64,000 bases of DNA from Spirogloea muscicola (lineage: Eukaryota; Streptophyta; Zygnematophyceae; Spirogloeales; Spirogloeaceae). The notes beneath the pieces were generated by a model. The model worked only from the letters and a program-made list of their open reading frames with translations. It searched no databases and had not been told where the DNA came from. Position 1 is the first letter of the stretch. Every line of letters begins with the position of its first letter. Shown in pieces: positions 1 to 64,000 of this stretch. The stretch lies in assembly GCA_009602725.1 (NCBI GenBank), contig WELB01000021.1:679502-743501 (forward strand), read 5' to 3'. Both the position numbers and the translations under genes were made by a program.

Positions 1-360
1 GCCCGCCGCTTCCATGGGGAGCCGGTGGACTCCCATGCAGCAGGGTCGCTAGCGCAGGTGTACCGCATGCGCTTGGCCGTCTCGCTGCAGAGGTCTATGG
101 CCCGCGCTCTGCACCTGCGTGCAGGCAGAGCCCTCGCTGCTGCCTCTGGCTCTGGCCAGGGGACCCGCTTCCAGGAACCCAGTCTCTCTGACCTGAGGCT
201 GCTTAGCAGGGGTTACTGAGGGCTTCGTAGCTGCTTCGTTTCTTTTCTGTGCTTGTTGTTCTTTGTACTTCCCCTGGCCCCTTCTCGTCCTTTGTTCATT
301 CTTTTCTGGGCTGGCTTTTTCCAGCCCCTATCCTCAATGGGCGAGCCCTTCTTCTTTCTC
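1..360 (+). mobile_element. LINE 3' end, 5'-truncated copy
   Basis: The window opens inside the last codons of a LINE-type ORF. The frame at 25-219 reads Leu-Gln-Arg-Ser then Arg-Ala-Gly-Arg-Ala-Leu and ends Leu-Leu-Ser-Arg-Gly-Tyr-stop. The same ending recurs at many places in the window in diverged form, always at the end of an open frame. About 90 bp after the stop is the tail hairpin at about 305-330 (GGGCTGG ... CCAGCCC), followed by the shared GGGCGAGC/CTTTCT tail. Only the terminal ORF segment is present, as expected for 5'-truncated reverse transcription. That the ORF is LINE-type is inferred from longer copies such as 48904-49390. Confidence 0.65.
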
Positions 361-559
361 ATAGCCATTGCGTAAATTGATAGAGCTGTTTCGTGCAGAG
401 AGGAAGGCGCCGCTAGATTGATTGGTGGCTGTGCTCTCGCTCCCCTGAGAGTTTCGCCGCCCGGCTGCGGCGCCCCCGTGCTCCTGGGGCTCCCCCCACC
501 GTTCCTTCTTTTCTGAGCTGCCAATCACAGCCATCGCCCTCGTTCTTCTATTGGGAGGC

Positions 560-1180
560 CTAGTCAAGTATGACTCAGCCTCAACAGTGGCGTGTCAAGT
601 CAGGTCAGTTTATGGCGGAAAAGGAGCCACCGACGGGATGGGGCGCAACAAACGAAGAACGGGCTCGCCACAACAACAGCGCTGCCGTCCACCGATAGTC
701 AAGCACCGCTCGAGACTGCATTCGGCAAGCTCCCAGCAGCGCAAGAGGAAAAGAGGGGCTGGCAAAGCCAGCCCAAAAAAGAATGGACAAAGTCCAAAGC
801 CAAAGAAAGAGGAGCCGGAGAGAGGACTACTACAACAAACAGCTCTTTCAAGTGGAGGCCATGGCTGTGAGAGGCGAGCTCAAAGGAATGTATTACTACG
901 CAAAGCGGCGGCGCAGGGCAGGGTGGCGGGGGACTCCCGCCACCCCTGCTACTTCTCCCTGTGCTTCCCTCTGCATCCTTTCTGTGTTTTTGCCGTGCTT
1001 TGTCGTGTAGTCCTTTTTCCGGCTCCTCTTTCTTTGGCTTTGGACATTGTCCATTCTTTTTTGGGCTGGCTTTGCCAGCCCCTCTTCTCTATGGGCGAGC
1101 ACTTTCAGCCTCCCTTTCATCTCATTCGCACCTGTGGCTTCTCCCTTGCAGCTACCTTGAATCCCCTTCTAAGCAACTTT
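560..1180. repeat. Stacked LINE tail modules
   Basis: Two hairpin tails lie back to back. One in minus orientation is near 755-790 (GGGGCTGG ... CCAGCCC, then GAATGGACAAAG). One in plus orientation is near 1040-1110. A block at 565-960 (GTATGACTCAGCCTCAACAG onward) recurs at 2790-3060 at high similarity and, inverted, near 12940-13190. It therefore belongs to an interspersed element rather than to a gene. I see no host gene in 360-1560. Confidence 0.5.
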
Positions 1181-1569
1181 TGACCAAGTGAAATTGGAAA
1201 AGAGCAGCTTGCGGCTTTGTTGGAACAGCTGGGCTTATGTTCGGAAAATCTTAGGGTTGACTGGCAGGGGTGGTGGAACACCTGCACATTCACTAACCAC
1301 TTGTCTGCACATGACAGTAGGTGCGTTAAAGCCACCACCTAACCAAAGCCTACGCAGCTCAAGGAGTCGTTCTCGGGCTGTGGGTCACTGTGAGCTACAC
1401 TTCTCACCTGTTATACAACCATGGGTCCAACATAGCCTGATGTTGGGCTGCCAAACTGGCTAGTGCAGTCTTTTGGCTTTGGCAGTAGCACCATGCCAAT
1501 ATACGACAGGTAAAGATTTTCGAAAGGAATTGCACTGTACAACCAGATAGCCAAACTTCTCCCGCTCGC

Positions 1570-1790: not shown

Positions 1791-2059
1791 TCATACTTGA
1801 CATTGTGGGCGTGCAACCTGGTGGAGGACCACGGGCCTTGGTTGATGTTGTTGTTACGGAGGGTTATAAAGGTCCAGCACCGACGCACATCGTGGCCACG
1901 CAGTGGGCAGTGCAGGACGAAGAAAGCTGCAGCACTACTTCGATTACCCCCAATGCGATCAGCTCCTGCCAGCTACAGTCGACATCTTTGGCTGTTTAGG
2001 TCCTCGTCCGTACACTCCTTCAGAAAATTGCCAATCTAGGCTATGCACGAAGTGCAGAT

Positions 2060-2420
2060 GTGTGTCCGGCTGAGGTGGGCTTGCCAGCTGCATATATGTC
2101 ATTCTTGCGACGACGAGTTTCGGCCTGTTTGCAGCGTGCTCAGGCTAATGCTTTGCACCAGAAAGCTGGGAGAGCTCTAGTTGGTGGCAGAAGGGCTTCG
2201 TATCTGCCATCTAGTATTCAGGCATCGAGTAGCGACCTTTATGTATTGACCCGTGTCTACGGAGCGGGTCAATCTGCTATAGGTGATGTACGTCTTTAGA
2301 TGTGCTTGCCTTTGTACTTGGCCATTTGGCCTTTGTTTAAAATACACGACAATTACTCCGCCTGCTAGCTATACCGACTTGCACTTACTGAGTAGAGGTT
2401 ACTGAGAGCCCCCTTGCTGC
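2060..2420 (+). mobile_element. LINE 3' end, second subfamily
   Basis: The frame at 2060-2299 carries the shared ORF ending in a distinct version (His-Gln-Lys-Ala-Gly-Arg-Ala-Leu-Val-Gly-Gly-Arg-Arg, later Leu-Thr-Arg-Val-Tyr). After it comes a tail with TTGTACTTGGCCATTTGGCC at about 2315. That string is a small GGCCA/TGGCC hairpin that recurs at about 12915, 17210, 47637 and 47786. This subfamily therefore has both its own ORF variant and its own hairpin. Related ORF copies lie at 5250-5400, 12590-12863 and 47480-47590. Confidence 0.6.
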
Positions 2421-2439
2421 CGTCTTAGCGATTAGTATC

Positions 2440-3420
2440 TTGCTTTTTACGCCATCCGGCCCCTTCAGAACTTGTCCTATTTATGGGCTGGCCTCTCACA
2501 GCCACCAGTCAATCTGGGAGCGCTGTTCTCATTTCCGGGCTGGCTTCTCACAGCCCTTGCCCCCATGGGAGAGTCACTTCCTTTTCGGGTTGGTTGGCTC
2601 GCTTGCCTCGTTGCGCATCGAGCGCTCATCTGGCAGTGGGGCAAGAGGACGCGCGGGCCTTGCCCCTTGGCCGTATTCTGCTACCGTGATGTCGCATTGA
2701 CAGTCGAGCGCTCGCTTTGACCTTTGACCATTCTTTCTTTCTCTGACCGAGCATGGACCCCCCACCTCGAGTCTGTTCAAAGCAGGAAGTATGACTCAGC
2801 CTCAACAGTGGCGTGTCAAGTCAGGTCATTTTTGGCGGAAGAGGAGCCACGACGGTATGGGCGCAACAAAAGGGCTGCCGTCCTCCTACCGTCGAGCACC
2901 GCTCGAGACTGCATTCGGCAAGCCACCAGCGGCGCAAGACCAGAGAGCACTTTCTTCTTCAGTAGCTGTGAGAGGCGAGCCCAAAGATGCGCAAAGCGCA
3001 AAGCGGCGGCGCAGGGCAGGGTGGCGGGGGACTTCCGCCAACCCCCAGGCCACTTCGCTCGCCACGTCCCACGGGGTGGGGCCCCAGCGCGGAGAAGAAG
3101 GCAGACTCTTCTGTGAACGGAATCGAGGTGGGGGTTCCATGCTCGGTCAAAGCTCAAAGCGCGCGCACGCGACTGAAAATGCGACTAAATGGTGGCAGAA
3201 TACGGCAAAGGGGCAAGGCCCGCGCGTCCTGCCAAATGACCGCTCGATGCGCAATAGCGAGGCAAGCGAGCCCAACGGATGAGAGGGAGAAGAAAGTTGT
3301 ATCTGCGAGAGAAAGGGCTTCCAGTAGAGGGCGATATCTGAGTGGCCAGCTCAGAAAATATAATGAAGGAAGTTTGAAAGGGCCAGAGAAAGCGCTAAAC
3401 CACACAGTGACTCAATGGCC
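2440..3420. repeat. Cluster of LINE tails and shared repeat block
   Basis: Plus-orientation hairpin tails are centred near 2488 and 2540. A repeat block at 2790-3060 matches 565-960, and the segment around 2600-2790 matches 3110-3290 in inverted orientation (CGCGCGGGCCTTGCCCC against GGGGCAAGGCCCGCGCG). A GCGCTAAACCACACAGTGACTCAATGGCCACGAGG string at about 3390-3425 returns near 34830-34870. No gene is supported. Confidence 0.45.
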
Positions 3421-3539
3421 ACGAGGTACTCAGTAACCCCTGTGTCTTTGCAATCATCATAAAAAGAGTGCAATAGTGACAAGACAGTACCCTTCCTTTG
3501 GGGAGGTGGCTGTAATAGGACAGCACAGATATTGGCCAA

Positions 3540-3781
3540 AGTTGGATGAGCAGGAGGGGAGGGGGTGAGAGAGCGCGAGCAAGCGCGAGAGTGAGTGAGA
3601 GAGCGCCGAGCGAGCGCAAGACAGACGGAGAGAAAAGAGAGATAGAGAGAGAGAGAGAGGAGGAGCGATGGATAGAAAAGAGGGAGTAAGGAGAGGGGGG
3701 AAGCGGCTGCTGGGGGGAGAGGGAGGAAAGAGAGAGGGGAGGGAGAGAGAGAGGGAGAGAGAGTGAGAGGGAGAGAGAGAG

Positions 3782-3842
<61 letters not shown>
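3540..3842. repeat. GA-rich tract with pure (GA)n core
   Basis: The stretch is almost all purine on the plus strand, and about 3785-3840 is uninterrupted GA dinucleotide repeat. On the minus strand it gives a meaningless Ser/Leu-rich frame. A shorter relative lies at 26910-26998, next to another copy of the 4060-4480 repeat, so the purine tract belongs to the same interspersed element. Confidence 0.85.
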
Positions 3843-3843
<1 letters not shown>

Positions 3844-5180: not shown

Positions 5181-5239
5181 CAACCAGCCAATTTGTGTAG
5201 GTCCTCATCTCTACAAACCATTTGAAATGTTTGCCAGCC

Positions 5240-11799: not shown

Positions 11800-12330
11800 A
11801 AAAGAGATGGGCCCCCAGCCGCATACCGCCGACGCCGACTCCCGCACGGGTGCCATCGGAACAGCGCTTCCAGATTGACAGCAGTGGCTTTGAGAGGTCA
11901 GCCCACAGAAAGTGGCTCCCCTGATGAGGGCAAGGGCTGTGATAAAACAGGCCACAAAAAGACAAGATTTGAAGGGAAGGGGCCACGAGCCAGCGGCGTT
12001 GAAGTCAGCCGGCTCACCGCGCCTGCGGGACACATTGCGCCACGCACGCCCCGTGCACGTCCACAGCCAGGGGGACGAACTCATCTCCAGCCGGGTGGTC
12101 GGCGTGTTTGGACGCTTGCTGCGAGCGGCCGTCGTCGCAGCGTGGCCAGCCCGCGAGGCAGAGAGCCCCGGGTTGGAGAAAGTGGTTGGCTGGGAGAGGC
12201 CAGCCCAGAGAAAAGAATGAACAAAGTTCGAAGGGGCCAGGGAAAGCGCTAAAAGCACACAGGGAAGCAAGTAGCTACGAAATACTCAGTAACCCGTACT
12301 AAGCAACCGTAGGTCGAAGAAACAGTACTC
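11800..12330 (-). mobile_element. LINE ORF/tail fragment, minus strand
   Basis: On the minus strand, about 12020-12110 encodes a degraded version of a conserved block found again at 49180-49240: a polar start, then Glu-Phe-Val-Pro-Leu-Ala-Val-Asp-Val-His-Gly-Ala. Hairpin tails in minus orientation lie near 11885 and 12190. The end TCGAAGGGGCCAGGGAAAGCGCTAAA at about 12228-12253 is shared with 15613, 16932, 57527 and 61860, which suggests it is part of the element's 3' end. Confidence 0.5.
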
Positions 12331-12479
12331 TGACTCCTGGAGCCGTGCCCCCCACGGCTCTTCTCCGCCCGAGGGCCCCCGGCCCGGTGAGGTGGCGGAG
12401 CCCTCCTCCACCCCTGCCACTCAGGCCAAGCAGTAGGCAGTACGGAACAAGAGGAAAGATTAGGGCGATGATTGGCTGT

Positions 12480-12950
12480 TATTGGCCAGCCCAGAAAGAG
12501 ATTGAACGCAAAGAATTAAATCTAAAGAATGCTGCAGCACTGCATCGACTACCCCCACTGCGATTAGCTCCTGCCAGCTGCAGTCGACATCTTTGACTGT
12601 ATAGGTCCTCGATGCCACACTCTCGTCGAGAATTTTGCCAATCTTGGCACGACAAGCAGATGTGCTTCCGGCCGAGATGGGCTTGCCAGCTGCATATCAG
12701 TCATTCTTGCTTCATCGAGTGTCGGCCTTTTTGCAGCGTGCTCGGGCTCATGCTTTGCACCAGAGCTGGGCGAGCTCTTGTTGGTGGCAGAAGGGCTTGG
12801 AATTTGCCATCTAGTTCTCAAGCATCGATTAGCAACCTTTACGTGCTGACCCGTGGTTATTGAGCGGGTCATCTGCAGTGGTAATGTACGTCAATCAGAT
12901 GTGCTTGCCGTCGTACTTGGCCACTTTGGCCTTCCATTGTGACGACACAC
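12480..12950 (+). mobile_element. LINE 3' end, second subfamily
   Basis: The segment CTGCCAGCTGCAGTCGACATC to the Leu-Thr-Arg-Gly-Tyr-stop at 12861-12863 aligns with 1970-2270. It is followed by the GGCCA/TGGCC hairpin tail near 12915. The ORF ending includes Ala-Gly-Arg-Ala-Leu-Val-Gly-Gly-Arg-Arg. The 1910-2270 and 12530-12870 copies share sequence upstream of the ORF core, so they extend further 5' than most. Confidence 0.6.
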
Positions 12951-13440
12951 ACAAGTCCTGCCCGTGCGCCGCCGCTTTGCGCATTCGTTCCGTACATCAC
13001 TTTGGGCTTGCCTCTCACAGCCATTGCCCTTCTTGACCCGCTGGGTGCTTGCCAATGCAGTCTCGAGCGGTGGTCGACCCTAAGAGGACGGCAGCACTTT
13101 GTTGCGCCCCATCCCGTCGGTGGCTCCTTTCCGCCATGACAGCCTGGCTTGATAAGCAATTGTCTAAGGCTGAGTCATGCTTTACTAGTGTGCATAGACT
13201 CGAGGTTGGGGGTCCGTGCTCGAGCATGGGTCAAGGCGAGCGCTCGACTAAATTGTGACATAACGGTAGCAAAATGATGGCGAAGGGCAAGGCCCGCGCG
13301 TCCTCTGGCCCACTGCCAGACCGCTCGATGCGCAACAGCGAGGCACGCCCATCGGAGGAGAGGTAGAAGAACTTTTACCCAAGAGAAGCAGCTTCTCTAA
13401 TGTACTGCACTGGCTTTGAGAGGCCGGCCTATAAGGAATG
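12950..13440. repeat. Inverted copy of the 565-960 repeat block with hairpin tails
   Basis: The text around 12985-13200 is the reverse-complement relative of 565-900 (GGGGCGCAACA-type and GACTGCATTGGCAAG-type strings). A plus-oriented hairpin tail lies near 13007-13030 and a minus-oriented one near 13400-13425. The segment 13195-13345 resembles 3115-3275. No gene is seen. Confidence 0.45.
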
Positions 13441-15559: not shown

Positions 15560-17260
15560 TTCTTCCAGGAGAGGGCGGTGGCTGGGAGAGACCAGCCCAG
15601 AGAAGACGATGAACAAAGTTCGAAGGGAGTTGCCCCACTACTCCCAAAACCTAAATCCCGCAACTCCTTTCCTGCTGCTACTTTTCCTGACTTGCGGCTG
15701 CTGACTTAGGGTTGACTGAGCAGGCACCCTCACTGATCCCTCCACGTCTTTCCCGGCTCCGTTGGACTTTGTTTATTCTTTTGTAGGCTGGCTTTTGGAC
15801 TTTGTCCTTCTTTTAGGCTGGCCTTTCCCAGCCCCTACCCTCTGAGGGAGAGCACTTTCTTTGTAGGCTGGCTTTCGGCAGCCCTCCACCCTTCCGAATA
15901 TATAGCTCTTCCAACGTAAGAAGATGGCTGTGAGCAGCGCTTGCATTCAAGCTGCGAGTTACTCCGACCTGCGGCTGCTGAGGGGTTTGAGCTCCTATTT
16001 GCTGTAGCCCTCTGCATAGTTGTGTGATTTGAGCCCCAGTCAGCCATTTTGATCTCGTCCACACTTTCTTGACTGGCTTTTCACAGCCCTTGCCCCCTTT
16101 TGACGAGCCAATTTCTTTTTATGAGCTGCTTCCTTCTACTTGCTGCCACTTCTCAAACTTTCGGCTGCTAAATAGGCGGCTACTAAGCAAGTACCTCTAG
16201 TGATCTCCATGTTTTCTAACTCGCTTGGCCTCCTCCTCATATCATGCGCACCGCGCGCCTTCTCGGTTTCCTCTGAGCACTATTTCTGAGCAAAAGTAGT
16301 CACGGGGGATGAGTGGCAGTTGTACTGAGAAGTTCTTGCCAAAAGGGGGCTATGGTTGTGACAGGCCAGCCCAAAAGGGATGAACAAGGTCCGAAGAGAA
16401 GTGCTCGCCCAAAAGAGGATAGGGGCTGGGAACGGCCAGCCCAAAAAGAATGAACAAGGTTGTCAGTCTGCTTCAGCGGTCCATGGCCCACGCCTTGCAT
16501 CTGCGTGCCGGCCGTGCTCTCGCTGCGGCCTCCGGCTTTCGTCAGGGGGATAGTTTTCCGGCAGCTAGTCTGTCGGATTTGAGGCTCCTCACTCGTGACT
16601 ACTGAGTGGTCCATCCTCCCCCGTTCTGACATGTCATCGTCAGACTCTTCGTAGCTGCTTAGCGCTGTAGGCCCCTCCGTCATTGGGCCCCTTCGAACCT
16701 TCGTCAAGTTCTTTTCGGGCTGGCTGTTGAAAGCCCTTGCCCCCCTTGGGAGAGCCACTTCTTTCTAATTAGCATATAGCATGTCAGATATGCATGTGCT
16801 CACTCGGAAATATTAGTGTCCCCCTTAGCCAGCTCATTACCCAGTTAATAGGACATTTGTAAGGCTAGAATTGGCCTCCCTTTCAATTTCATGCGCACCG
16901 CGCGCCTTCTCTCTAGAATGAAAGAACAAGATTCGAAGGGGCCAGGGGAAGCGCTGAAAACAAACAAATCCGATAGGGCCGGTTAGATCTAAACCACACA
17001 GCTAAGCAAGTGGCTTCCACGAAGAGCTGCATAACGCCTATTCTGACAGTGGGGGTGCCTCGTGAGGGGTGCCCCTGCGCCTTCCGTCATCTGTATTTTG
17101 CCATCAGGTATTCAGAAACCGCTTAGCGACCTTCGTGTTGTCCCGTGCTTACTGAGCAGGTCAATTTACAGTAGGTAATTTACGTCCAAAAATGTGCTTG
17201 CCTTTGTACTTGGCCATTCTGGCCTTTGATCGTTTCAAATACACAAGGTTTTCCTTCCAA
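15560..17260. repeat. Dense array of LINE tails, both orientations
   Basis: Hairpin tails are centred near 15590 (minus), 15795, 15825 and 15875 (plus), 16080 (plus), 16360 and 16430 (minus), 16715 (plus), and the second-subfamily GGCCA hairpin lies near 17210. A near-complete ORF ending of the first subfamily is at about 16465-16605 (Gln-Arg-Ser-Met-Ala-His-Ala-Leu to Leu-Thr-Arg-Asp-Tyr-stop). No host gene is seen. The serial arrangement suggests repeated insertion into earlier copies. Confidence 0.6.
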
Positions 17261-32229: not shown

Positions 32230-33200
32230 CGTCGCATGACCACCCCGATCGAGCTCAAACTGCTCAGCGAAAGCGCGGGAGGCTCCAGCAACCCCCCGTC
32301 CGGGCAACGACCGCACGGCAAGCGGCTGTGGGCGGTGCTGGCGCAGCAGGAGCCGGGAGGGACCCGCTTGGCCCGGCCGGCCGGCGGGCTGGCGGAGGCC
32401 CTCTCGCCGTGCAGGAGCCCGCCCGCCTCTTGGAAGCAGCTCTTTCAACGTAAGAAGTGTACAAGGTCTAGAAGGGCCGGCCTTGGATTCTTGTCGGGAC
32501 GACCGCGGAACGACCGCCGAAGGACGACCCGGCCTTGACGACCTCCAGAAAGACGGCGAGCATGAGCGGGTGCTCCTTTCTCTCTGCGCCATCCGGCTCC
32601 TTCAGACCTTGTCCATTCCTTTGGGCTGGCCTCTCACAGCCACCAGTCAATTGGGCCGCGCTTTCTTTCTCTCGGCCCCTTAGGACCTCTGTCGATCCCG
32701 TTTTGGGCTGGCCTTTCACAGCCATCGCCCCATCCTGGTTCTTGTAGTCTTGGGCTGACCTTTTCAAAGCCGTCGCCTTTCTCCAACTTACCTCTCCCTT
32801 TTCCGGTGCGTTTCCAGATGCATGACTCCAATGCTGAGTGTCGGTCATCGAACACCCATTCTGAAGTCACTCGCAGAGCTTGTGAAGTGAGCGCATCTTG
32901 GCACTTTGGCCTGTGTCCATCCTTTCCGGGATGGCTTTTCACAGCCCTCGCCTCCTTTGGTTCATTTCTTTTCTGGGCTGGCCCTTCACAGCACTTGCCC
33001 TCTACTGGAAGAGTCTCTCTCTCCCTTTGGAAAAGTCTACTTCTTCTCTTCGCTAAAAAAATTGATAGATGCTGTCCCAAAGGGGGAAGGCTGTGAACCA
33101 GCCAGCCCAACACAAATCTGACAAGGTCCGGTGGGGCCAGAAAGCGCTTTTCCAGAGCTTTCAAGGGAGGTTATACAGAGGACTGAGAAGGGCAGGCTTA
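32230..33200. repeat. GC-rich block followed by stacked LINE tails
   Basis: 32230-32530 is GC-rich. Hairpin tails in plus orientation follow at about 32630, 32712, 32760, 32935 and 32982, each headed by TTCATT/CCATCC-like text. A minus-oriented tail is near 33085-33115 and ends GACAAGGTC. Five same-direction tails within 400 bp imply serial insertion or tandem growth of the tail alone. Confidence 0.55.
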
Positions 33201-33990: not shown

Positions 33991-35880
33991 CACGGACTAT
34001 GACTGGAGAACCAGAGACATGGAAATCTTAGTAATCAGAAGGAAAGCTTCGACCCACCTCTAGATGAAGCCAATCGACGACTTCTCCAGGACGTAGGAAA
34101 TTTGACGAGTGTAAGCCCTTCACATTCTGGCAAGGTTGGAGAAGCATCACGTCAAGCATCATCAGACAAGCATCCTTGCAATCAGGGGCAAGACGCGCTT
34201 GCAAGCATGCTATGCGGTTGACAGCTTAGCAATGTCTAGGCTGATGTATCTCCTACTCATTCATTGTAATCGTACAAACACTCACAGCCAAGAGACAACT
34301 CATATGCTGGCTGTCTGAAGTACCTATCAAAGAGGAAGAAGATGCTCTGTGCAGCTTGCTCAATCTTACGGCAGCTCATATTTTTAGGATTGTCGGTATG
34401 GTCTTGTCTACAGCTTTGCCAATAAGAGACAGACTTGGATGTGAAAGCGGAGTAATTGCAGTCTCTTTTGTCATTCAGCAGACGTCCAACCAGGATAGTG
34501 GCGTGAAGCTCATTACACGCCTTGTTCAGTCAAGTGATGAAACATCCAAGCAAAAGCACGAAGACAGGATATCAGCACAGGCAGGGAGGGACACGCATGA
34601 CCCAAGAATAGCTTCCTCCGTATCATCATGGCACCCACACATCATGGGCTGTACTGGGGGTGCCCTGAGAATGCGAGCATAAGCTGCAACGGAGATCCTC
34701 AGTTTCCCGTGCCAACTTAGCACATAACTGCCATATCCTCCCGACTATGAAGGTCTGGTGAGGTAGTCAATTACCTGCTGTGAGATGGTGGCCTTCAGAA
34801 GATTGACAAAGGTCGAAGGGGCCAGAGAAAGCCCTAAAAGACAGTGACTCAAGTGGCCACGAGGCACTCAGTAACCCCTGTTGGCAGCGGCTGGTCATAG
34901 AAACTAGTTCCTGGGTAGCGGGTCCTCTGGCCAGAGCCAGAGGCTGCAGTCAATGCGCGACCGGCCTTCAAGAGGTACTGCACATGGTGCCCGCTTGCAT
35001 ACAGACGCAATGAATTCCTCCTTCTCACTTATTGTTGTTCTCCATTGATTTGCAGCTTGAGATGCTGCCTCAACGACTTATATGATAGACGCCAAGAAAA
35101 GAGACGACTTATGAAGCAAGCCTCTTACCCATTGCTATTCTTTCACTCTATTGTACTCCTTTTCACCTCCATTTATTTCAAGCCAGTGCAAAACCACGTA
35201 TAGTGATTGGATCTGTACTGCAGGCATGCTGGCAAGAGCATGTAGTACCACGCTCTCCTGTGTACTGCAAGGTGGTGTGTAAGCATAGACACGCTGACTT
35301 ACAAGTAGGCCACATATATGATGCTCAAGAAGGGAAGATAGGACTACACTGCTTACTTTCTAACAAGCTTCCTGTTCTACTGAGTTATCCTCTTCTTGCA
35401 ATTGCTTTGCTGAGACGTTGTCTTGCTAAGATGTGGTCAGCTTTACTCCACTCGCTGTTGCTTACATCATGGCACTCATAAGAAACAAACACGTCTATTT
35501 GTTGTAGCAACGCTCTAGAGAGACATCCTCTTCAAGGCAACAGCTGTGAGAGGCCAGCCCAAAAGCAATGGACAAGGTAAACGCGGCCGGAAGGCACAAT
35601 AGCAGGAACCTCTGTAATTTCTGCAAATGGGCGCTTACTCAGTTTCGAGTCAACAGATCTAGATCCGTATAAGCAGTGGGCGGGAATGCTCCAACAATGC
35701 TTAACAAACGCTTCAAGAAAAGTGTGCAAGCAACAATAAGAGCATACTTGTATACTTGTAAGAGCACACAACTTGCTTGGTGCCCGTCACATGCAAATGC
35801 TAGCTGACCGCAGCAGCCGTCCATGGCCTCTTTGAGAGTGCGTGCTCCAGTTTTGAAGGAATTATTGACACAAGATTTGT
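33991..35880. other. Mostly unassigned; LINE-tail scraps
   Basis: GACAAAGGTCGAAGGGGCCAGAGAAAG at 34804-34830 and the following 50 bp match the segment near 3375-3440. A minus-oriented tail lies at about 35545-35580 (CAGCTGTGAGAGGCCAGCCC, then CAATGGACAAGG). The frames at 34136-34682 and 35203-35481 lack recognisable motifs. The region is AT-richer than average. Confidence 0.35.
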
Positions 35881-47830: not shown

Positions 47831-48169
47831 TTCTTAGGAAGATGCTCATTTTTCAAACTTCCGAAAAGAAGGCGAAAACGACAATATGCCTGGAAGCACT
47901 TTCTTAAAATTAATGGAAAGAGGGAATGGGGGACGCCGATGGGAGCCTCACGCGGCCCCCTTCCTTGGTTGACCTGAGGAAACCCGTTGACTATATTACA
48001 ATGGACTCTTCCGGCTAGGCGCCCCTTGCGCAACGAATACAAACAGCTCTGCGCACACAAACAGCAATGAAAGCAAGCGTCTGAGTCGTCCGCCAAGGCG
48101 GTAAGTGAAATTTGCAATATTGGCAGCGCCTGCCAGCCAAGATGCAGCCAGCTAAGTGGCGGTGCAAAT

Positions 48170-48449: not shown

Positions 48450-48850
48450 GCACTAAGATGAGAGAAGCGCGTCCAAATTGAGAGCAGTGGCTGTGAGAGG
48501 CCAGCCCAAAAGAATGGACAAGGTCTGAAAAGAAAAAGGGCCGGAGGGCACAAGAAGCAAGATACAAACCACGAAGTCAGCAAGTGGGCTCTCAGTAAAC
48601 TCTAGTCAGTAAATGGAGGTCGGAGTAGCTAGAGGGCGGAAAGACGTCGCCCTGACAGAATCCGGAGGCAGTAGCCACGGCGCGACCTGCACGTACGTGG
48701 ACGGCAAAGGCAAGGGACCTCTGCAGGGAGATGGCCAGGCGCATCCGGAGCGCTGATCCTGGGCCTAGCCTCTGCACAAGCAACAGCGCTGCCAAATTGA
48801 CTGGAGGCTGTGAGAGGCCAGCCCAAAGGAATGGAGAATTCTGAAGGAGC
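48450..48850 (-). mobile_element. LINE 3' end, minus strand
   Basis: The ORF ending reads on the minus strand from about 48795 to a stop near 48607 (Leu-Gln-Arg-Ser-Leu-Ala-Phe-Ala, Arg-Ala-Gly-Arg-Ala, Leu-Leu-Thr-Arg-Val-Tyr). Beyond it lies the tail with the hairpin at about 48488-48510 and CAAAAGAATGGACAAGGTC on the plus-strand text. A second tail starts at about 48808, so this copy is inserted in or next to the tail of the one that follows. Confidence 0.65.
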
Positions 48851-48859
48851 CGGATGGCG

Positions 48860-49390
48860 CAACAAGCAAGGTACGAAGTGCTAAGACGGCAGCAAGGGGG
48901 GTCTCAGTAACCTCTAGTCAGTAATTGCAAATCGAAATAGCTAAGCAGGCGGATAGACGTCGCCCTGTCGGACCCCGGAGGCCGCAGCCAAAGCGCGGCC
49001 TGCACGCAAGTGGACAGCGAAGGCAAGGGACCGCTGCAGGGAAATGGCCAAGCGCATCCGGAATACTTGAGCAAGGGACCCGGCGGCATTGAAGCCAGGC
49101 TGTTTGCTCTGCTGCCCTTGGCGGCGGGCCACTGCACGCCGCGCAAGGCGCTGGAGAAGGTCAAGCCAGCGAGTCCAAAACGCCCCGTGCACGTTGACGG
49201 CGACCGGGACGAACTCGTCCCCCACTAAGTGATCGGCGTGTTTGCGTTCCTTGACGCCCGCCGCTTGGCAGAGAAAGTGCGCGCCCATAGAGAAGATGGC
49301 TGGCAGAGGCCAGCCCGAATGGACAGAATCCAAAGAGCCAAAAAGACACCTAAAAGAAATGACACAGCTAGACACAAGACGACGCAACGG
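48860..49390 (-). mobile_element. LINE 3' end, longest clear copy
   Basis: Minus-strand codons from about 49260 down to 48904 hold the longest readable ORF end, in two overlapping frames. The order is Arg-Lys-His-Ala-Asp-His, Glu-Phe-Val-Pro-Val-Ala-Val-Asn-Val-His-Gly-Ala, Trp-Leu-Asp-Leu-Leu-Gln-Arg-Leu-Ala, Leu-Gln-Arg-Ser-Leu-Ala, Arg-Ala-Gly-Arg-Ala-Leu-Ala-Ala-Ala-Ser-Gly and Leu-Leu-Thr-Arg-Gly-Tyr-stop. The block around Phe-Val-Pro...Val-His-Gly resembles the C-terminal part of LINE-type ORFs, where an (F/L)-x-P-L-(A/V)-x-E-x-(F/H)-G motif follows the RT. This copy is the reference for the family. A second tail (hairpin about 49295-49315) lies at its 5' side. Confidence 0.7.
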
Positions 49391-49519
49391 AAAGCTCAGT
49401 AACCCCTGCTACGCCGCTCCGCGGACTGCGTAGTCCGCCTCCTCCGACGAGCATTGGGCGCTCCGAGAACCGACGCAGTCGAGTGGTGACGACGTCGGCA
49501 ATTAGCCGGGGCTGCTTGG

Positions 49520-50220
49520 TTTCTTCTTGTGCTTATTTTTCGTAGTGCTTCCCCTGGCCCCTTCGTTTCAATGCTCCCTAGCCTACGCCGTCCACACGCG
49601 AGCAGGCCGTGCTATGGCTGCCGCTGGGTCTCGGCAGAGTGCCTCTTTCCCTGCAACGAGCTACTCCGACCTGATGTTACTGAGCTTCCCTTTGTATCGT
49701 CGGGGTCACTAGCGCAGGTGTACCGTATGCGCTTGGCCGTCTCGCTGCAGAGGTCTATGGCCCACGCGCTGCACCCGCGTGCCGGCAGAGCCCTCGCTGC
49801 TGCCTCTGGCTCTGGCCAGGGGACCACTTCCAGGAGCCTAGCTTCTCTGACCTGCGGCTGCTTAGCAGGGGTTACTGAGTAATTCGTATCTGCTTTGTTT
49901 CTTCTTGTGCTTGTATTTCTTAGCACTTCCCCTGGGCCCCTTCTCGTACTTTGTTCATTCTTTTTTTGGGCTGGTTTTTCCAGCCCCTATCCTCGATGGG
50001 CGAGCCCTTTCTCTTGTGTTTTGTAGTGTTTTGAGGTGTAGTACTTTTTCGGCACCTCTTTCTTTCGCTTTGAACATTGTCCATTCTTTTCGGGCTGGCT
50101 TTGCCAGCCCCTCTTCTCTATGGGCGAGCACTTTCTCTTTCTTTCTTCTTGTCCTTTGTTCATTCTTTTTTGGGCTGGCTTTTTCCAGCCCCTATCCTCA
50201 ATGGGCGAGCCCTTCTTCGC
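49520..50220 (+). mobile_element. Two nested LINE 3' ends and three serial tails
   Basis: A partial ORF end at about 49545-49690 (Arg-Ala-Gly-Arg-Ala-Met-Ala-Ala-Ala, then Tyr-Ser-Asp-Leu-Met-Leu-Leu-Ser) is cut by a second ORF end at about 49695-49880 that closely matches the copy at 35-219. Three tails follow, with hairpins near 49968, 50092 and 50172. They are spaced 124 and 80 bp apart and all in plus orientation. The first tail and the third share the words TTTGTTCATTCTTTTTTTGGGCTGG almost exactly, so they are recent. Confidence 0.65.
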
Positions 50221-54600: not shown

Positions 54601-54679
54601 GGCGGGGAGCTGTTTGCCGCCTCCCCCGCTCTGCCATAGCATCTTCAGGCCCCGCAGTCGCTGCTTAGCTCGTAGTTTG

Positions 54680-55015: not shown

Positions 55016-55615
55016 AAACCGCGCCACAGTCGCCGAGGAGCTCCATGCGGCCTTCCCCACCCTGCTGCCGTTCTTTCGGCTGGCCTACGGCCAGCCCAGT
55101 GATCTCCTATAGCGGCATGGAGCCAGAGGGGTGGAGGTCCTTCAGTCTTCCACGGGCACGCGTCAGGGGGACCCGCTGGCGGGGTTTTTCTACGCGCTGG
55201 CCCACGACCGCGCCCTGAAGGCCACGGCAGCTGCTCACCCGGGCGTCCTCATGCCCACGTATGCCGACGACACCACCCTGGTCGGGCAACCAGACGAGGT
55301 CTTGGCTGCCTTCGCCACCCTCGAGGAGCAGCTGAAGAAGATCCGCCTGGACATCCGAGCGTCGAAGTGCAGCGCTTGGTCTCCACAAGGGTTGCCAGCC
55401 CTCCTCCACCTTCCCTCCTGCTGTCAGACACCAGCCGGGGGCCTCACACTCCTCGGGGTTCCATTGGGCTCACCTACCTTCGTGGACGAGCAGCTGCGCA
55501 GCAAGCTGCAGGAGCACCTCAAGCCGGCGGCCCGCCTCCCTGAGCTGCACGATATGCAGCTAGGGCTTGCCATGCTGACGAGCAGCATAAACCTCTTGAT
55601 AAGACCATGGTAAAT
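55016..55615 (+). mobile_element. LINE reverse transcriptase fragment
   Basis: Frame 55131-55613 contains Thr-Gly-Thr-Arg-Gln-Gly-Asp-Pro-Leu (RT block 4), Tyr-Ala-Asp-Asp-Thr (block 5, with the catalytic Asp pair), Ala-Ser-Lys-Cys-Ser (block 6) and Leu-Leu-Gly-Val-Pro-Leu-Gly (block 7). Just upstream, 55020-55115 in another frame gives the preceding block (Leu-Pro-Phe-Phe-Arg-Leu-Ala-Tyr-Gly), so there is a frame change near 55120. Codons are GC-rich. The fragment ends abruptly at about 55613 where the flank of the plus DUF579 copy begins. It is likely the RT of the LINE family whose 3' ends fill the window, but no copy links the two directly. Confidence 0.8.
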
Positions 55616-55783
55616 GGGAGAGCTCTTGCGATGCACCATGTCATGCCAGATAGATTTTATATGTGCAGGGCAGGAAGAGAAGCATTGCAAGTTGTCCCGG
55701 TCCTTTAGTCTGTCATTTCTGCCAGGCCACGTTGCAGTGACATGTATGGATTGCCACTGAGCTGTTTTGTGTGCTTACTCCAG

Positions 55784-56716
55784 GAAGAGATTACAATCAT
55801 GCTCGACATCCTCCAGCAGCGGGGTCCTACCCATGTGCTTGCTTTTGGGTTGGCCCAAGTCAGCCCACTTTGGGCAGCACTGAATGCTGGTGGTCGCACA
55901 GTATTTTTGGAGGATTCACTCGATTGGATGGCGGCCACGAATCTGGTTGGTGACTTTTTACCAACTTCCGTCCTTTTGTTTGCTGCAGCATGCATGCGAC
56001 TTGCTGCGTGCACACTACTCAGCAGAGCCATCAGCTTGAAGTCGTCTAGACGGGAGAGTGACTGACATGCCCAATGTCATGCTCATAGAAAGTGATGAAG
56101 GCTGGCATCAACTTGGAAATGGGCCATACTTGTCTACAAGACAATACTCTCTCAAGCACACGAGCTGATGAGTTATGCATGCGAAGGCGGTGAGGACGGG
56201 GGTCTGCAAGCCGCATCAAGATCTGGAGTCAAGCGAGTGCAACCTCACTTTGACTCAGCTCCCTAAGTACGACCAGACTTGACACCCAACAGGCCATCTT
56301 CCTACTTCTTGAAGGCACAAATTCATTGTTCAGCTGTGCATTCCTTCTTACACAGTTGTTGTTGGTATTGTGTTGACACCATGTATTCCCTTGGTGCTTT
56401 CCTTGAGCCATGACCTTACCGATGCGTCAGTGCAGGCAACTCTTTCACGTGGATTGGGATGTTATCATCATTGATGCTCTTGTGGGCCAGCGACACAGCG
56501 CTCGTGGGCGGATGGCTCTCATCGTCACAGCTGCGGTCTTTGCCCACAACAGACAGTCACCTGGTGCAACTGACGTGCTGGTACACGATGTTACCAGGAA
56601 TGTGGAGCAAGATTGGAGCGATGAGTTTCTTTGTCTTTAGAACAAGGTTGCCTGCTCAGGGCGCTTGTGCCACTATAATGCATCTCGATATTTCAATACC
56701 ACGTCCTCCCTTTTGA
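55784..56716 (+). pseudogene. DUF579 (IRX15/GXM-like), plus copy, disrupted
   Basis: Exon 55784-55945 (acceptor TGCTTACTCCAG) encodes Val-Leu-Ala-Phe-Gly-Leu...Leu-Trp-Ala-Ala-Leu-Asn-Ala-Gly-Gly-Arg-Thr-Val-Phe-Leu-Glu-Asp. A second exon ends at 56266 (Thr-Leu-Thr-Gln-Leu-Pro, CCTAA/GTACGA). A third starts at 56436 (acceptor CGTCAGTGCAG) with Val-Asp-Trp-Asp-Val-Ile-Ile-Ile-Asp-Ala-Leu-Val-Gly, Arg-Gly-Arg-Met, Val-His-Asp and Glu-Phe-Leu-Cys. Exons 2-3 join in phase 2, as in the minus copy. Exon 2 has a frame change near 56180. In exon 3 a TAG follows Glu-Phe-Leu-Cys-Leu, where the family normally continues about 20 residues; related codons do continue past it. The Ala-Pro of the usual Asp-Ala-Pro motif is Ala-Leu here. 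These breaks suggest a decaying paralog of the 51.8-kb gene, or sequence errors. Confidence 0.65.
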
Positions 56717-57275
56717 CCTTTCCCCATGTAGTGATTTGACGTCGTTGACTCATGAGCACTGGCAGGGGTGAATCATCTGCATGCCAGGCAAGTAAGCCCC
56801 ACTGCACTTGAATGTGCCCAATATGCCATGATGAAGGGACTGTACAATGGTGACAAGCGACCTCATGGAGACTCTGGAAATTGCTTGTGTGGGTTGGTGT
56901 TTGCTCAATAGGACCAGCCTAACACCTTGCTTCATGAGCTGGCATTATGCCACTTGGGCCGTTCACTTTGCAGTTTGCTCAGCTCCATCCGTCCTTGCTC
57001 CACGTATCTGCAATTCTAGGCTGCTCTGGTGCTGGAGAAGTTGCTGGATCAGTGTGGGCAACTGCTCTGAAATTTGTCAGGCTAGATGGTGGGCAGGCCG
57101 CGGCAGGCCAAGGCGACCAAGGACGCTGACGGCCACCACAGGCTGCTCTGTGAATCATTGCTTTTGATGCAAACAAGTCTCGTCCATGCAGTGGCTGAAC
57201 TTGCTGCTGAGGCTGGCATGCTGGGCGAAGGTGACAGGCAAAAGCAGCGAGTAGTGAGGTATCCATGTCGTAAGC
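56717..57275. other. No recognisable gene
   Basis: Frames on both strands are open for up to about 150 codons without motifs or splice borders. This is the 3' flank of the plus DUF579 copy. Confidence 0.35.
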
Positions 57276-59321
57276 TTTTTCGACTTCTCCCACCACTCTA
57301 TCGCCTTCTCCCACCACAAGAGTGGTGGCAGATCTCCCACCACAAGAGTTGTGGGAGAACGAATCTTCTTTTGTCTTCTTGAAGGGATCGCAGACATGCG
57401 CCGTAGAGTCGATGTGCGCCAGGAACCTGCACAAGTAGCAGCCTCGGTTTTAAGAGTGAAAGACGCTTCCAGGAGAGGGCGGTGGCTGGGAGGGGCCAGC
57501 ACAGAAGAAAGAACGAACAAAATTTGATGGGGCCAGGGAAAGCGCTAAAGCTAGCACACATGGTATCAAGCAGCTACGAAATACTCAGTAACCCCTGCTA
57601 AGCAGCCTCAGATGTTTAGGGCCCCTCTCTTACCTTTAGCCTCGAGCTGCCCACGTGTCCGGCACCGCGTGATGGGACAGACAGCTAAAGGCTGAAAGCT
57701 TGGGGTTGCCTTCAATACTTGATCCATTCTACTGGGCTTGCCTTTCGTCTACTTCCCTATGGACCCGGGAAGTGGACGCCTCCGCCGTCGTAGCTGCTCA
57801 AATTCCAGCTAAGGAAATGTCAAAGGGAGTCGACTCGGTCTAGGGTGCAGCCCCAAGAGAAACAGCCCTTCCAATTTTCGGCAATGGCTGTGAGAGGCAG
57901 AAGGCGCGCAGTGCACAATAGTGAAGCGGAGGCCAAATCACAGCACGGCCAGCACCTGCGTGCTGGCCGTGCCGTGCTCTACCCGCAGCCTCTGGCTTTC
58001 GTCTGGGGGATTGCTTCCCGGCTGCTAGTCTTTCGGATTTGCGGCTCCTCACTCGTGGTCACTCGTGACGCCTAGTATCTGCTTTTTGCGGCATCCGGGC
58101 CTTTCCTAACCCGTCCAGTCCTTTGGGCTGGCCTCTAACAGCCACTGCTGTCAATTCGTAAGAGCTGTCTCCTTCACTGTGTCATCCATCCTACCCAAGC
58201 TCTGAGAGTCCTTTTCGGCCCATTCTGACCTTGCTCATTTTTTTCGGGCTGGCTGTTCACAGCCCTCGCCCCCCTTAGGAGAGCCACTTGTCCTTTTGGA
58301 AGAGCTCACTTCTTTTCTCAGTCTAGGGCATTGGCTGTGAGAGGCCAGCCCAAAGAATTGAACAAAGTTGATAGGGCAGGAAGGCGCAGACGGACAGATG
58401 ATTTTCAGTGACTTCTGCCAAAACTTGGCCGCAGACCAGTGCATAAGCTCCGCTTGGCCTCCATTATGGATTATGCCCACCGTGCACAGTCTCCCTCTCT
58501 TAGCTATTGTCCCTTAGCATAGGGCTTCGCTTAGTTCAGGCCCATCGTTTGCACTAGCTTCTGCCTGAATAGAGCATTTGCTCCACATGGCCTCCCTTTT
58601 GTTTCATGTACACCGCGCGTCTTCTCTCCTGGAGAGGAGCAGGTGGTGGTCGAGAACATCCACCCACTTTAAGAAGGTGGCTGGGTCGAGAAGATCGCCG
58701 AACAGCGGATTCACAGGCAGAATGTAATGTGTGGCTTGGGCAAGCTGTGCGAGTATGAGCAAGTAAGTGGCTTGTACTCCGTTGGGCTGGCCTCTCCCTC
58801 TTCTCATAGCCATTGCCCCCATTAGTATAGCTTCTTCTGTCCGAGGTGGGGTGAAGGTTTCTATCTTGAGGGTCTCCTGGGATCGCGGAAGCACTGTGGG
58901 AGATGTGCTAGCAACAGGCACACCGCCACTCCAGTGGAATTATTGTTGGCCGTCAGCAAGTCAGAATTATTTTGACAAGGTCAACAAGGGGCCGGAGAGC
59001 GACTACCACGAAGTTACATCCAAGCGGGGGCGAGAAAAGCAGCTCTCAAAGGGGTGAGGGCTGTAAACAGCCAGCCAGCTTAGACTGTACAAGGTAAGGC
59101 GAGGTGGAGAAGAAGTGACGAGAGGAGAAGCGACTGTTGTCAAGACCACAGCAGGCACCCAAAGGCGAGAGGAGAAGTGACTGTTGTCAAGACCATAGCA
59201 GGCACCCATTGTGGTCTTCAACAAATTGTCACCGGCGCCTTTGGACCTTGTTCATTCTTTGTGGGCGAAATGGCTTCTTCCCAGCCCTCGCCTTTGCACC
59301 TGAGCTGCTTCTCCTCGGCTT
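57276..59321 (+). repeat. 2-kb direct duplication, copy 1
   Basis: The segment matches 61615-63605 nearly base for base. Ends are judged by eye: CTTTTTCGACTTCTCC at the start, CTTCTCCTCGGCTT at the end. It begins with a palindromic CTCCCACCAC/GTGGTGGGAG cluster (57286-57360). It then holds, in order, a minus-oriented LINE tail (57480), an ORF-end core (57955-58075), plus-oriented tails (58124, 58242), a minus-oriented tail (58330), a diverged tail (58782), a minus one (59050) and a plus one (59265). Copy 1 has an extra 46-bp tandem unit (CGAGAGGAGAAG... at 59119 and 59165) that copy 2 lacks. Confidence 0.9.
57286..57360. repeat. Palindromic CTCCCACCAC cluster, copy 1
   Basis: TTCTCCCACCAC recurs three times and pairs with GAGTGGTGGCAGA and GTTGTGGGAGAA, giving alternative hairpins with stems of about 10-12 bp. 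The equivalent at 61625-61700 pairs better (GTGGTGGGAGAA), so copy 1 has lost one base pair. Confidence 0.75.
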
Positions 59322-60673: not shown

Positions 60674-61614
60674 GAAGCAAGCAATCTGCAGTGCCGCGGT
60701 TTGCCGCGGGGCCGCACATTTGCGGCCGCGGACGCGGCGCGGTGGCGCGGCACGCTCGGCTGCGTTGTCGTCTCATCGTGGTCGGGAGCGCGCTCCGTTG
60801 CGTCGGGGGTCTCTTCAACGCGCGCGAAGGGCGGGAAGGTGACGCGTCGAGATTCTGTCAATGCCTCCGCTTTGCACGCAGTCAGCCGCTCAAGTCGCCC
60901 GCCGGATGTCCGACGTCGATTCCTACTTATGGTTGTATACCAAAAGGAAGGGTCTTTCTCCTCGTTTCCTCGGCTTTGCGCTTTCCGCCTGATTTGGCCT
61001 CATTTGGCCTCCATTATATTTGAGTGGAAGCGCACGGCTTCCTTCTGTCCCCTTCATCGCTGATTAAAGAAGAAATGAGCGCCATTGTATGCCGGTGGGG
61101 GTTGGGGGCCTGTAGTGTTGACACTTACTGAAGTACAAGGTTCACTAAATCAGACCAATCAAGCTTAGCGGCAAGGTTCCACTTCATCTTGCACACCCTG
61201 CACAATACGATTTGCAGTTTGTGATCTGGTGCTCACAAATAGGCGACTATTCAGGCCAAGTACTGAGGCAAGTCCGTCCTACTACTCGCTCGAGAATGAG
61301 GATGCCCACTGACAGCTTCCATAGGGTCCTACTGACCATTCTAGTACTTGCCCACGCCCGCTAAGTTGGCAAATCTCTTCCTCCCCCGGCGCTACAAGAG
61401 ACCCTTACGTAGTGGAACCTCCACTTGGCAGAGGCTTTCTGCAGCTTAACGTTTTCGAGTTCATTCAGACTACTCAATATGAAAAGTCCCCCGGAATTTA
61501 ATCAAAGCTATGGCGTTGGCCTTAATCGATCCTCTGCAGCAGCTGCAGCACAACTCTGGTCTTGAGAGAGGTAGGCTATGGAGGCTGGGAAGTGACCTTG
61601 ACATGATCTTGACT
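60674..61614. other. GC-rich then ordinary sequence; no recognisable gene
   Basis: GC-rich to about 60850, with open frames on both strands that look like composition artefacts; AT-richer afterwards. I see no exon or repeat I can name. Confidence 0.35.
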
Positions 61615-63605
61615 CTTTTTCGACTTCTCCCACCACTTTATCGCCTTCTCCCACCACAAGAGTGGTGGCAGATCTCCCACCACAAGAGTGGTGGGAGAAG
61701 GTATCTTGTTTTGTCTTCCTGAAGGGATCGCAGACATGCGCCGTAGAGTCGATGTGCGCCAGGAACCTGCACAAGTAGCAGCCTCGGTGTCTAGAGTGAA
61801 AGACGCTTCCAGGAGTGGGCGGTGGCTGGGAGGGGCCAGCACAGATGAAATAATGAACAAAGTTCGATGGGGCCAGGGAAAGCGCTAAAGGCAGCACACA
61901 TGGTATCAAGCAGCTACGAAATACTCAGCAACCCCTGCTAAGCAGCCTCAGATGTTTAGGGCCCCTCTCTTACCTTTAGCTTCGAGCTGCCCACGTGTGC
62001 GGCACAGCGTGATAGGACAGACAGCTGAAGGCTGAAAGCTTGGGGTTGCCTTCAATACTTGATCCATTCAACTGGGCTTGCGTTTCGTCTACTTCCCTAT
62101 GGACCCGGGAAGTGAACGCCTCCGCCGTCGTAGCTGCGCAAATTCCAGCTAAGGAAATGTCAAAGGGAGTCGACTCGGTCTAGGGTGCAGCCCCAAGAGA
62201 AACAGCCCTTCCAACTTTCGGCAATGGCTGTGAGAGGCAGATGGCGCGCAGTGCACAATGGTGAAGCGGAGGCCAAATCACAGCACGGCCAGCACCTGCG
62301 TGCCGGCCGTGCCGTGCTCTAGCTGCAGCCTCTGGCTTTCGTCAGGGAGATTGCTTCCCGGCTGCTAGTCTTTCGGATTTGCGGCTCCTCACTCGTGGTC
62401 ACTCGTGACGCCTAGTATCTGCTTTTTGCGCCATCCGGCCCTTTCCTAACCCGTCCATTCCTTTGGGCTGGCCTCTCACAGCCACTGCTGTCAATTCGGA
62501 AGAGCTGTCTCCTTTACTGTGTCATCCATCCTACCCAAGCTCTGAGAGTGCTTTTCGGCCCATTCTGACCTTGCTCATTTTTCTCGGGCTGGCTGTTCAC
62601 AGCCCTCGCCCCCCTTAGGAGAGCCACTTATCCTTTTGGAAGAGCTCACTTCTTCTCTCAGTCTAGGGTATTGGCTGTGAGAGGCCAGCCCAAAGAATTG
62701 AACAAATTTTATAGGGCAGGAAGGCGCAGACGGACATGATTTTCAGTGACTTCTGCCAAAAGTGCGCCGTGCATGAGCTCCGCTTGGCCTCCCTTATGGA
62801 TTATGCGCACCGTGCACAGTCTCCCTCTCTTAGCTATTAGGTCCCTTAGCATAGGGCTTCGCTTAATTCAGGCCCATCTTTTGCACTAGCTTCTGCCTGA
62901 ACAGAGCATTTGCTTCACATGGCCTACCTTTCGTTTAATATACACCGCGCGTCTTCTCTCCTGCAGAGGAGCAGGTGTTGGTCGAGAACATCCACCCACT
63001 TTAAGAAGGTGGCTGGGTCGAGAAGATCGCCGAATAGCGGATTCACAGGCAGAATGCAATGTGTGGCTTGGGCAAGCTGTGCGCGTATGAGCGAGTAAGT
63101 GGCTTGTACTCCATTGGGCTGGCCTCTCCCTCTTCTCATAGCCATTGCCCCCATTAGTATAGCTTCTTCTGTCCGAGGTGGGGTGAAGGTTTCTACCTTG
63201 GGGGTATCCTGGGATCACGGAAGCACTGTGGGAGATATGCTAGCCACAGGCACACCGCCACTCCAGTGGAATCATTGTTGGCCGTCAGCAAGTCAGAATT
63301 ATTTTGACAAGGTCAACAAGGGGCCGGAGAGCGACTACCACGAAGCTACATCCGAGCGGAGGGGGGCGAGAAAAGCAGCTCTCAAAGGGGTGAGGGCTGT
63401 AAACAGCCAGCCAGCTTAGACTGTACAAGGTAAGGCGAGGTGGACGAGGCGAGAGGAGAAGTGACTGTTGTCAAGACCACAGCAGGCACCCGTTGTGGTC
63501 TTCAACAAATTGTCACCGGCGCCTTTGGACCTTGTTCATTCTTTGTGGGCGAAATGGCTTCTTCCCAGCCCTCGCCTTTGCACCTGAGTTGCTTCTCCTC
63601 GGCTT
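61615..63605 (+). repeat. 2-kb direct duplication, copy 2
   Basis: Near-identical counterpart of 57276-59321. It holds the better-preserved palindrome (61625-61700), the ORF-end core at about 62285-62405, and the same order of LINE tails (hairpins near 61830, 62464, 62586, 62675, 63116, 63400 and 63547). Differences from copy 1 are scattered substitutions and small indels, plus the missing 46-bp tandem unit. The flanks differ from those of copy 1 on both sides. Confidence 0.9.
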
Positions 63606-63639
63606 TGCAGTAAGACGGCGTCAGCCATTTCAGCTGGAG

Positions 63640-64000
63640 ACGAGGCAGCCCAACCAAGTTGGCAAGTTGTGCCCGGCGAGAGTCGTAAGAAAGAAAGACT
63701 CTTCAGTAGAATGGAATGTGGCTCTCCCAATGGGGGCAAGGTTTGTGAACAGCCAGCCATAAAAGATTGACTATCTTCGAAGGGGCCAAAAGCGCTCTCA
63801 GAGCTTGGCCGGTAGGATGTATTACTCAGTAAGCACGAGTGAGGGCCGCAAATCAGAAAGACTAGAAAGAAAGTGGCTCTGCCAAAGAAAATGGGCGAGG
63901 GTTTTAGGGTAGATGACGACGGCCGTGATTGGTCAGCCCAGTAAGGAATGACAATGTCCGAAGGGGCCAAAAAAACATTAAAGCATGAGAAAGTCAAGCT
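63640..64000 (-). repeat. LINE tails at the window end
   Basis: Minus-oriented tails lie near 63720-63790 (GTGGCTCTCCCAATGGGGGCAAGG, hairpin, then CTTCGAAGGGGCC) and 63890-63975. The window ends inside this repeat cluster. Confidence 0.55.

Follow-up and report, generated by a model that had tools for sequence, protein, structure and literature searches.

Conserved inverted-repeat tails, tail-only copies and tandem tail units of a LINE family in a 64,000-nucleotide stretch of Spirogloea muscicola

For several long interspersed nuclear elements (LINEs), recognition of the RNA by the copying enzyme through a 3' tail hairpin has been shown or proposed. For zebrafish L2 elements, PMC4176376 describes an essential 3' stem-loop which is bound by the ORF2 protein, the loop being the main determinant and the stems being exchangeable. 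For other elements, PMC3747384 describes that UnaL2 of eel ends in a short tandem repeat and that compensatory changes are seen in the conserved 3' hairpin of one plant L1 lineage; it also contains the proposal, resting on few cases, that the ancestral green-plant LINE (L1) was stringent at its 3' end and was later relaxed to poly(A). We have analysed a stretch of 64,000 nucleotides (nt) from Spirogloea muscicola (contig WELB01000021.1, positions 679,502 to 743,501), which is here called the window and which, together with the literature, is the scope of all counts given below. The window is rich in copies of a tail bearing the inverted repeat GGCTG/CAGCC, which we name LINE-A. This is a genuine LINE tail of an undescribed family, in which we observe a constant order of parts, conservation of the repeat arms and of sequence blocks, copies lacking the 5' part and tandem tail units. 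No description of the GGCTG/CAGCC tail was found in the open-licence literature, judged mostly from listings.

LINE-A resembles the L2-clade and plant L1 tails in anatomy. As in UnaL2, ZfL2-1 and ZfL2-2 of the L2 clade, the tail is the conserved part and has a short inverted repeat near the terminus, and as in UnaL2 a short terminal repeat follows; unlike in the ZfL2 elements, where by PMC4176376 specificity resides in the loop, the stem sequence of LINE-A is nearly invariant and the loop varies. With the plant L1 group monocot 1a of maize and sorghum (ME1; LINE1-1_ZM with ZmSINE2 and ZmSINE3), for which stringent recognition has been proposed, it shares a conserved 3' inverted repeat in a green-plant LINE. 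However, the monocot 1a hairpin is described in PMC3747384 as having compensatory changes, variable stem letters, a loop that contains UCU and a conserved CGAG on the 3' side of its stem, whereas LINE-A has a near-invariant stem and no covariation. A further likeness, made by description only, is to RandI-2/Dualen of Chlamydomonas and the short interspersed nuclear element (SINE) SINEX-2_CR, which also belong to the green lineage; SINEX-2_CR has a RandI-2-like tail and the 3' repeat (CTTT)n (PMC3747384).

The original prediction, made by reading the letters, held that the window contains roughly 50-60 copies of the tail in both orientations, and the counts bear this out. The literal pattern GGGCTG, 3-30 nt, CAGCCC gives 14 matches versus 0.37 expected, and a weight matrix iterated on the 30-nt core and run on both strands collects 61 hairpin-core copies, while among 20 first-order Markov versions of the window 16 gave none and four gave one. 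A direct 2-kb segmental duplication (57275-59321 and 61615-63605, 92.7% identity) carries six hairpin copies per half, so that the six in its second half are set aside and 55 independent copies remain; these twins are left out of the independent counts and kept in the 61-copy scan, in the register count of open reading frame (ORF) ends and in the 11-row identity comparison. A few low-scoring matrix matches are probably false, for example that at 55838 in an IRX15-like exon. Five low-quality copies (3506, 33179, 47220, 55838 and 58775) were omitted from the 50-tail consensus fold, the outer-helix swap, and the terminal-tract and ORF-end-distance counts; the tandem-pair count (51 copies) dropped four of them and kept 47220, and the 48-copy alignment used for the both-sided-change test and the segment RNAalifold run consists of the 49 copies passing a spacing and 3'-arm filter, minus 55838.

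The link of this tail to a LINE protein end is evident from a search that makes no use of the repeat. Matches to the DNA of LSRGY-stop (AGYAGGGGTTACTGAG) with at most three mismatches number 12 versus 1.03 expected, and in 11 of the 12 a hairpin region follows in register, recognisable in nine and decayed in two (3429-3444 and 34867-34882, both on the minus strand); the twelfth, at 47570, belongs to a related family, LINE-B. As the matches at 57584 and 61924 are segmental twins, 10 of these 11 in-register matches are independent, and the distance from stop to stem is 78-88 nt in the eight intact independent copies. Upstream, several LINE-A copies encode one and the same C-terminal protein domain, which reaches the ORF end and is continuous with the tail; its longest copy reads DEFVPVAVNVHGAFWTRWLDLLQRLARRAVARR...GSLAQVFRMRLAISLQRSLAFAVHLRAGRALAAAS, and the C-terminus runs ...RMRLAISLQRS...RAGRALAAAS...DLHLLSRGY-stop. 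The 3' untranslated region that follows comprises about 80 nt with the conserved blocks GGCCCCTTC and TTGTYCATTC, then the inverted repeat GGCTG/CAGCC (6-7 bp in some subfamilies, loop of 5-8 nt), then about 20 nt and a terminal tract of CTTT/CTTC type. The earlier statement that many copies share the same 3' ORF ending is therefore right as to the link but holds for a minority only, since an intact ORF end is present in 8 of 50 independent hairpin copies and absent from 42. Among these 42, six have a decayed ORF end scoring at least 11 of 16 versus 1.2 expected, none reaching 12 and at least one (861) looking like chance. Hairpins lacking any link to a reverse transcriptase (RT)-type ORF end, which the original prediction had named as evidence against itself, are thus found in part. 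Short 5'-truncated inserts together with duplication of the tail would be a simpler account of the ORF-less hairpins than a separate origin, though not a proven one.

The 3' terminus is likewise recognisable. Pyrimidine content is 0.78-0.79 at 20-28 nt past the hairpin and is back to 0.51 by +32, and CTTT-like 7-mers, a set chosen after inspecting the copies, occur in the tract region of 19 of 50 copies versus 4 and 2 of 50 further on. Pairwise alignments between copies mostly stop at +10 to +30 or at +40 to +50, and few pass about +60. The copies have, as expected of a LINE, a common 3' end and in many cases no 5' part, their start points being spread over the profile model with a bimodal distribution.

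In respect to conservation, the 11 rows collected through their ORF end, the twins among them, have an identity of 0.89 in the stem, 0.80 in the loop and 0.72 in random other tail columns, and 11 random tail columns reach the stem value in 0.01% of draws; the blocks CTGGCCCCTTC and TTTGTTCATTC stand at 0.88 and 0.85. When copies are recruited by the 5' arm alone (T..GGGCTGG), CAGCC is found at +13 or +14 in 33 of 41, and once the twins are removed, which leaves 39 recruits, the 3' arm has an identity of 0.84, the loop of 0.62 and the downstream sequence of 0.45. Recruitment on the 3' side gives 18 copies, 15 of them with GGCTG upstream, in which identity is 0.74 in the 5' arm, 0.76 in the loop and 0.45 upstream. 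Both arms are thus kept together above their flanks, and the advantage of arm over loop is clear in one direction of recruitment only. In an ungapped stack of the independent copies the information content is highest in both arms and near background about 30 nt past the hairpin, a peak which is partly ascertainment, as this set was recruited by the hairpin itself. The claim that the hairpin is better kept than its surroundings consequently stands for the stem against the average tail column, but not against the block CTGGCCCCTTC, and the 3'-side recruits do not separate arm from loop. The data show that two complementary arms are conserved in sequence; they do not demonstrate a structure.

We consider it reasonably probable that LINE-A is a non-long-terminal-repeat (non-LTR) retrotransposon of a green plant or streptophyte alga, that its conserved tail acts as an RNA hairpin used by the element's own protein in target-primed reverse transcription, and that tail-only and tandem copies represent short 5'-truncated inserts and tail duplication. 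The two arms would pair in the RNA, and through this tail the protein would place the terminal tract at the nicked target, where priming takes place; a role of the tail in priming is likely, judging from its anatomy and from known LINEs. Tail-only and tandem copies would be very short 5'-truncated inserts, and the tail units may have been duplicated, as a conjecture, either through slippage involving the terminal tract and the TTCTTTT that precedes the stem or through template jumping, a process described for R2 (PMC4117753). Unequal recombination would also give tandem arrays. The stringent-type LINE of the original prediction is supported by a LINE family whose repeat lies at a fixed distance beyond a conserved ORF end, ranks with the best-kept parts and is followed by a pyrimidine tract 20-30 nt on; it is not supported by compensating variants, a consensus fold, an in-context stem in most copies or an RT-tail link in the window.

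Several observations indeed weigh against this account, most of them structural. Standard core pairs occupy 247 of 275 cells versus 246.2 after shuffling of the 3' arms (P 0.35), and a both-sided change is seen in 1 of 288 cells of the 48-copy alignment, a figure reached by 485 of 500 shuffles. By both tests covariation is absent, and the compensating variants formerly read in the stem are not confirmed, since in the GGGCTGG...CCAGCCC form just one arm varies, with A or C facing a G that stays the same. RNAalifold predicts no consensus pair on either 50 tails or 48 hairpin segments. In context (-30 to +55) the GGCTG/CAGCC stem is part of the minimum-energy fold in 22 of 55 copies, with a mean pair probability of 0.37 and a median of 0.03 (slid control 0.001), and eight of ten copies have a tail whose fold energy is unremarkable (z from -1.3 to +0.7), the other two, which are close relatives, standing at -3.4 and -3.6. 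The upstream block GGCCCCTTC is about as conserved as the stem. Beyond structure, no profile match starts between model positions 118 and 201, where plain 5' truncation predicts otherwise; no convincing target-site duplication was found among 51 copies, which look old, so that this is weakly informative; and the RT fragment at 55113-55613 is unconnected to any LSRGY tail, having other sequence on both flanks, with no element in the window joining RT to the LINE-A tail. As to the search for such duplications, flank matches of at least nine bases occur in 3 of 51 copies (two are tail sequence repeated in a neighbouring unit and one is a CTTT run; swapped controls have a mean of 0.9 and a maximum of 3), and the mean longest flank match is 5.71 versus 5.22 (standard deviation 0.23) in swapped controls.

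These structural values bear on an alternative in which the tail is read as linear sequence, or is kept as a DNA or RNA-processing signal, and in which the RT makes no use of the GGCTG/CAGCC symmetry as an RNA hairpin. The sequence is kept without covariation and without a consensus fold, the stem appears in a minority of context folds, and the upstream block is conserved to about the same degree, all of which this reading would accommodate, as it would the competition between GTCCA-TGGGC pairing and the stem in two folded copies. It fares less well with the fact that the two complementary arms are retained jointly and at a constant distance (33 of 41), that loops vary between subfamilies while the arms are unchanged, and that the repeat lies at a LINE 3' end, the place of known tail hairpins. 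Moreover, the decay of many copies lowers all covariation and folding values, and we regard this alternative as unlikely. The 48 aligned copies have 79.5% of their cells paired versus 34-53% when slid by 1-3 columns, and the hairpin segment, taken by itself, forms the GGCTG/CAGCC stem in 46 of the 55 copies. Of ten longer folds, those of 48466-48602 (minus) and 32585-32668 (plus) have, by a reading of the dot-brackets, the block GTCCA pairing with TGGGC and UGGC with GCCA, which gives a two-hairpin alternative. A longer outer helix suggested by single folds was rejected, own pairing giving -15.9 and swapped pairing -16.5 kcal/mol (P 0.91, 50 copies).

The most unusual feature is the head-to-tail arrangement of tail units. 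Adjacent same-strand hairpins within 130 bp form 12 pairs versus 2.5 expected among 51 copies (11 pairs without copy 47220), a number reached in none of 5000 random placements, while close opposite-strand pairs number 2 versus 2.4 expected. Four of the same-strand pairs have a period of 47-52 bp and pyrimidine-rich junctions. With a profile built from the 11 ORF-end copies, which match by construction, 16 of 51 matches start at or before model position 118 and 35 at positions 201-254, within about 50 nt of the stem. An X element at 2596-3272 (relatives 560-990 and 12957-13371), whose parts 2596-2785 and 3108-3272 are inverted copies of one another (73% over 195 bp), resembles a foldback or miniature inverted-repeat (MITE-type) DNA transposon; three X-element copies bear the LINE-A hairpin at one shared internal junction, and copy 1 looks like a product of unequal recombination. 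Quite unlikely in our judgement, the tail-only copies could be a separate short repeat sharing the LINE-A end, either a SINE that has acquired the tail of a LINE or a unit of minisatellite type spread by recombination, in which case most hairpins would not be LINE insertions. The start points crowded near the stem with a gap before them, the tandem pairs, four of which have a period of 47-52 bp, and the shared junction in the X elements all agree with such a repeat. The decayed ORF ends above expectation speak against it, with the reservations already given for their scores, and the upstream stretch is poorly conserved even in true LINE-A copies (0.67), so that the profile may stop early; in addition, no transfer RNA (tRNA) gene was found, and no systematic search for a common SINE head was made. 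That the conservation arises artificially from using the hairpin itself to collect the copies is highly improbable and largely refuted, for although the 61 copies were collected with a hairpin-centred matrix, conservation persists in copies recruited by the ORF end alone or the 5' arm alone and, versus the flank though not versus the loop, in those recruited on the 3' side.

A second family, LINE-B, has a C-terminus similar to that of LINE-A (58% identity over 24 amino acids (aa), E 8e-4) and a different tail, so that tail and C-terminus go together by family. Its copies end in SNLYVLTRGY-stop (B2), LTRGY-stop (B3) and LTRVY without a stop (B1), and the palindrome GGCCA..TGGCC is present in four of five copies. 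The full-length element joining RT, post-RT region and tail, whose identification had been suggested as a check, was sought in the window and none was found; the Pfam scan covered 20 stretches while the window has 136 stop-to-stop ORFs of at least 110 aa, so an endonuclease elsewhere is possible. At the sensitivity used, no relatives of the RT fragment were found in IMG/VR, GTDB genomes or phages; the C-terminal domain has none in IMG/VR and one chance match in PDB, the tail pattern is absent from IMG/VR, and no tRNA gene or Rfam family was found in the window.

A high-copy family that has near-invariant arms, a variable loop, tandem tail units and a relative with a different tail would be useful for testing the stringent-ancestor proposal, provided that a full-length element and its RT clade are found. 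As a bolder and very doubtful idea, LINE-A may represent a group of green-lineage LINEs that are recognised by their invariant stem sequence instead of the loop. In such a group, reverse transcription would duplicate the entire unit of 50 nt from hairpin to terminus rather than a terminal repeat of 4-5 nt, and tail-only hairpins would in this way be sown at a density of almost one per kilobase. The coordinates of the features are collected in Table 1.

Table 1. Positions of LINE-A, LINE-B and RT features in the window.
Feature	Positions	Strand	Details
LINE-A copy, C-terminal ORF remnant	34..354	+	ORF end 205-220, hairpin 308-327, 3' end near 354; 43-356 90% identical to 49703-50015
Tail hairpin, 7-bp form GGGCTGG/CCAGCCC	308..327	+	literal pattern
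LINE-A copy with C-terminal ORF	49691..50013	+	ORF end 49864-49879, hairpin 49968-49986
Two tail units head to tail behind LINE-A copy 49691..50013	50056..50218	+	hairpins 50092-50110, 50172-50191
LINE-A copy	2357..2580	+	ORF end 2391-2406, two hairpins 52 bp apart (about 2485-2504, 2537-2556)
LINE-A copy	12165..12443	-	ORF end 12285-12300, hairpin about 12187-12206
LINE-A copy with C-terminal ORF	48466..48750	-	ORF end 48591-48606, hairpin about 48488-48507
LINE-A copy, longest C-terminal domain (DEFVPVAV...RAGRAL)	48785..49220	-	ORF end 48903-48918, hairpin about 48805-48824
LINE-A tail	49256..49567	-	ORF end 49395-49410, hairpin about 49297-49316
LINE-A tail	57407..57743	-	ORF end 57584-57599, hairpin about 57483-57502
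LINE-A tail, segmental twin of 57407-57743	61747..62082	-	ORF end 61924-61939
LINE-A tail, decayed hairpin (remnant about 3336-3353)	3261..3557	-	ORF end 3429-3444
LINE-A tail, decayed hairpin	34699..35030	-	ORF end 34867-34882
Tandem tail units 50 bp apart	15793..15886	+	
Cluster of four same-strand tail units	32585..33034	+	units at 32614, 32696, 32919, 32966
Tandem tail units 49 bp apart	11857..11984	-	
Tandem tail units 70 bp apart	16318..16461	-	
LINE-B, related family: similar C-terminus, different tail	1990..2347	+	GGCCA..TGGCC, end near CAAATACAC
Further LINE-B tail copies	about 12590-12945, 17090-17253, 47480-47680, 47759-47833		
LINE-type RT fragment (GTRQGDPLAG...YADD), 166 aa	55113..55613	+	Pfam RVT_1 E 1.2e-8

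Outside these elements, the window has an ORF for a WRKY transcription factor at 23600-24502 on the minus strand (Pfam E 8.1e-23) and, beside the RT fragment, an IRX15/IRX15L/GXM-like coding stretch at 55709-56065 on the plus strand (match about 55784-55939, Pfam E 2.8e-13). These two point to a green plant or streptophyte alga. The stretch 28236-29970 consists of direct repeats whose units measure about 230-240 bp and are 78-96% identical, and a long (GA)n microsatellite lies at 3590-3840.

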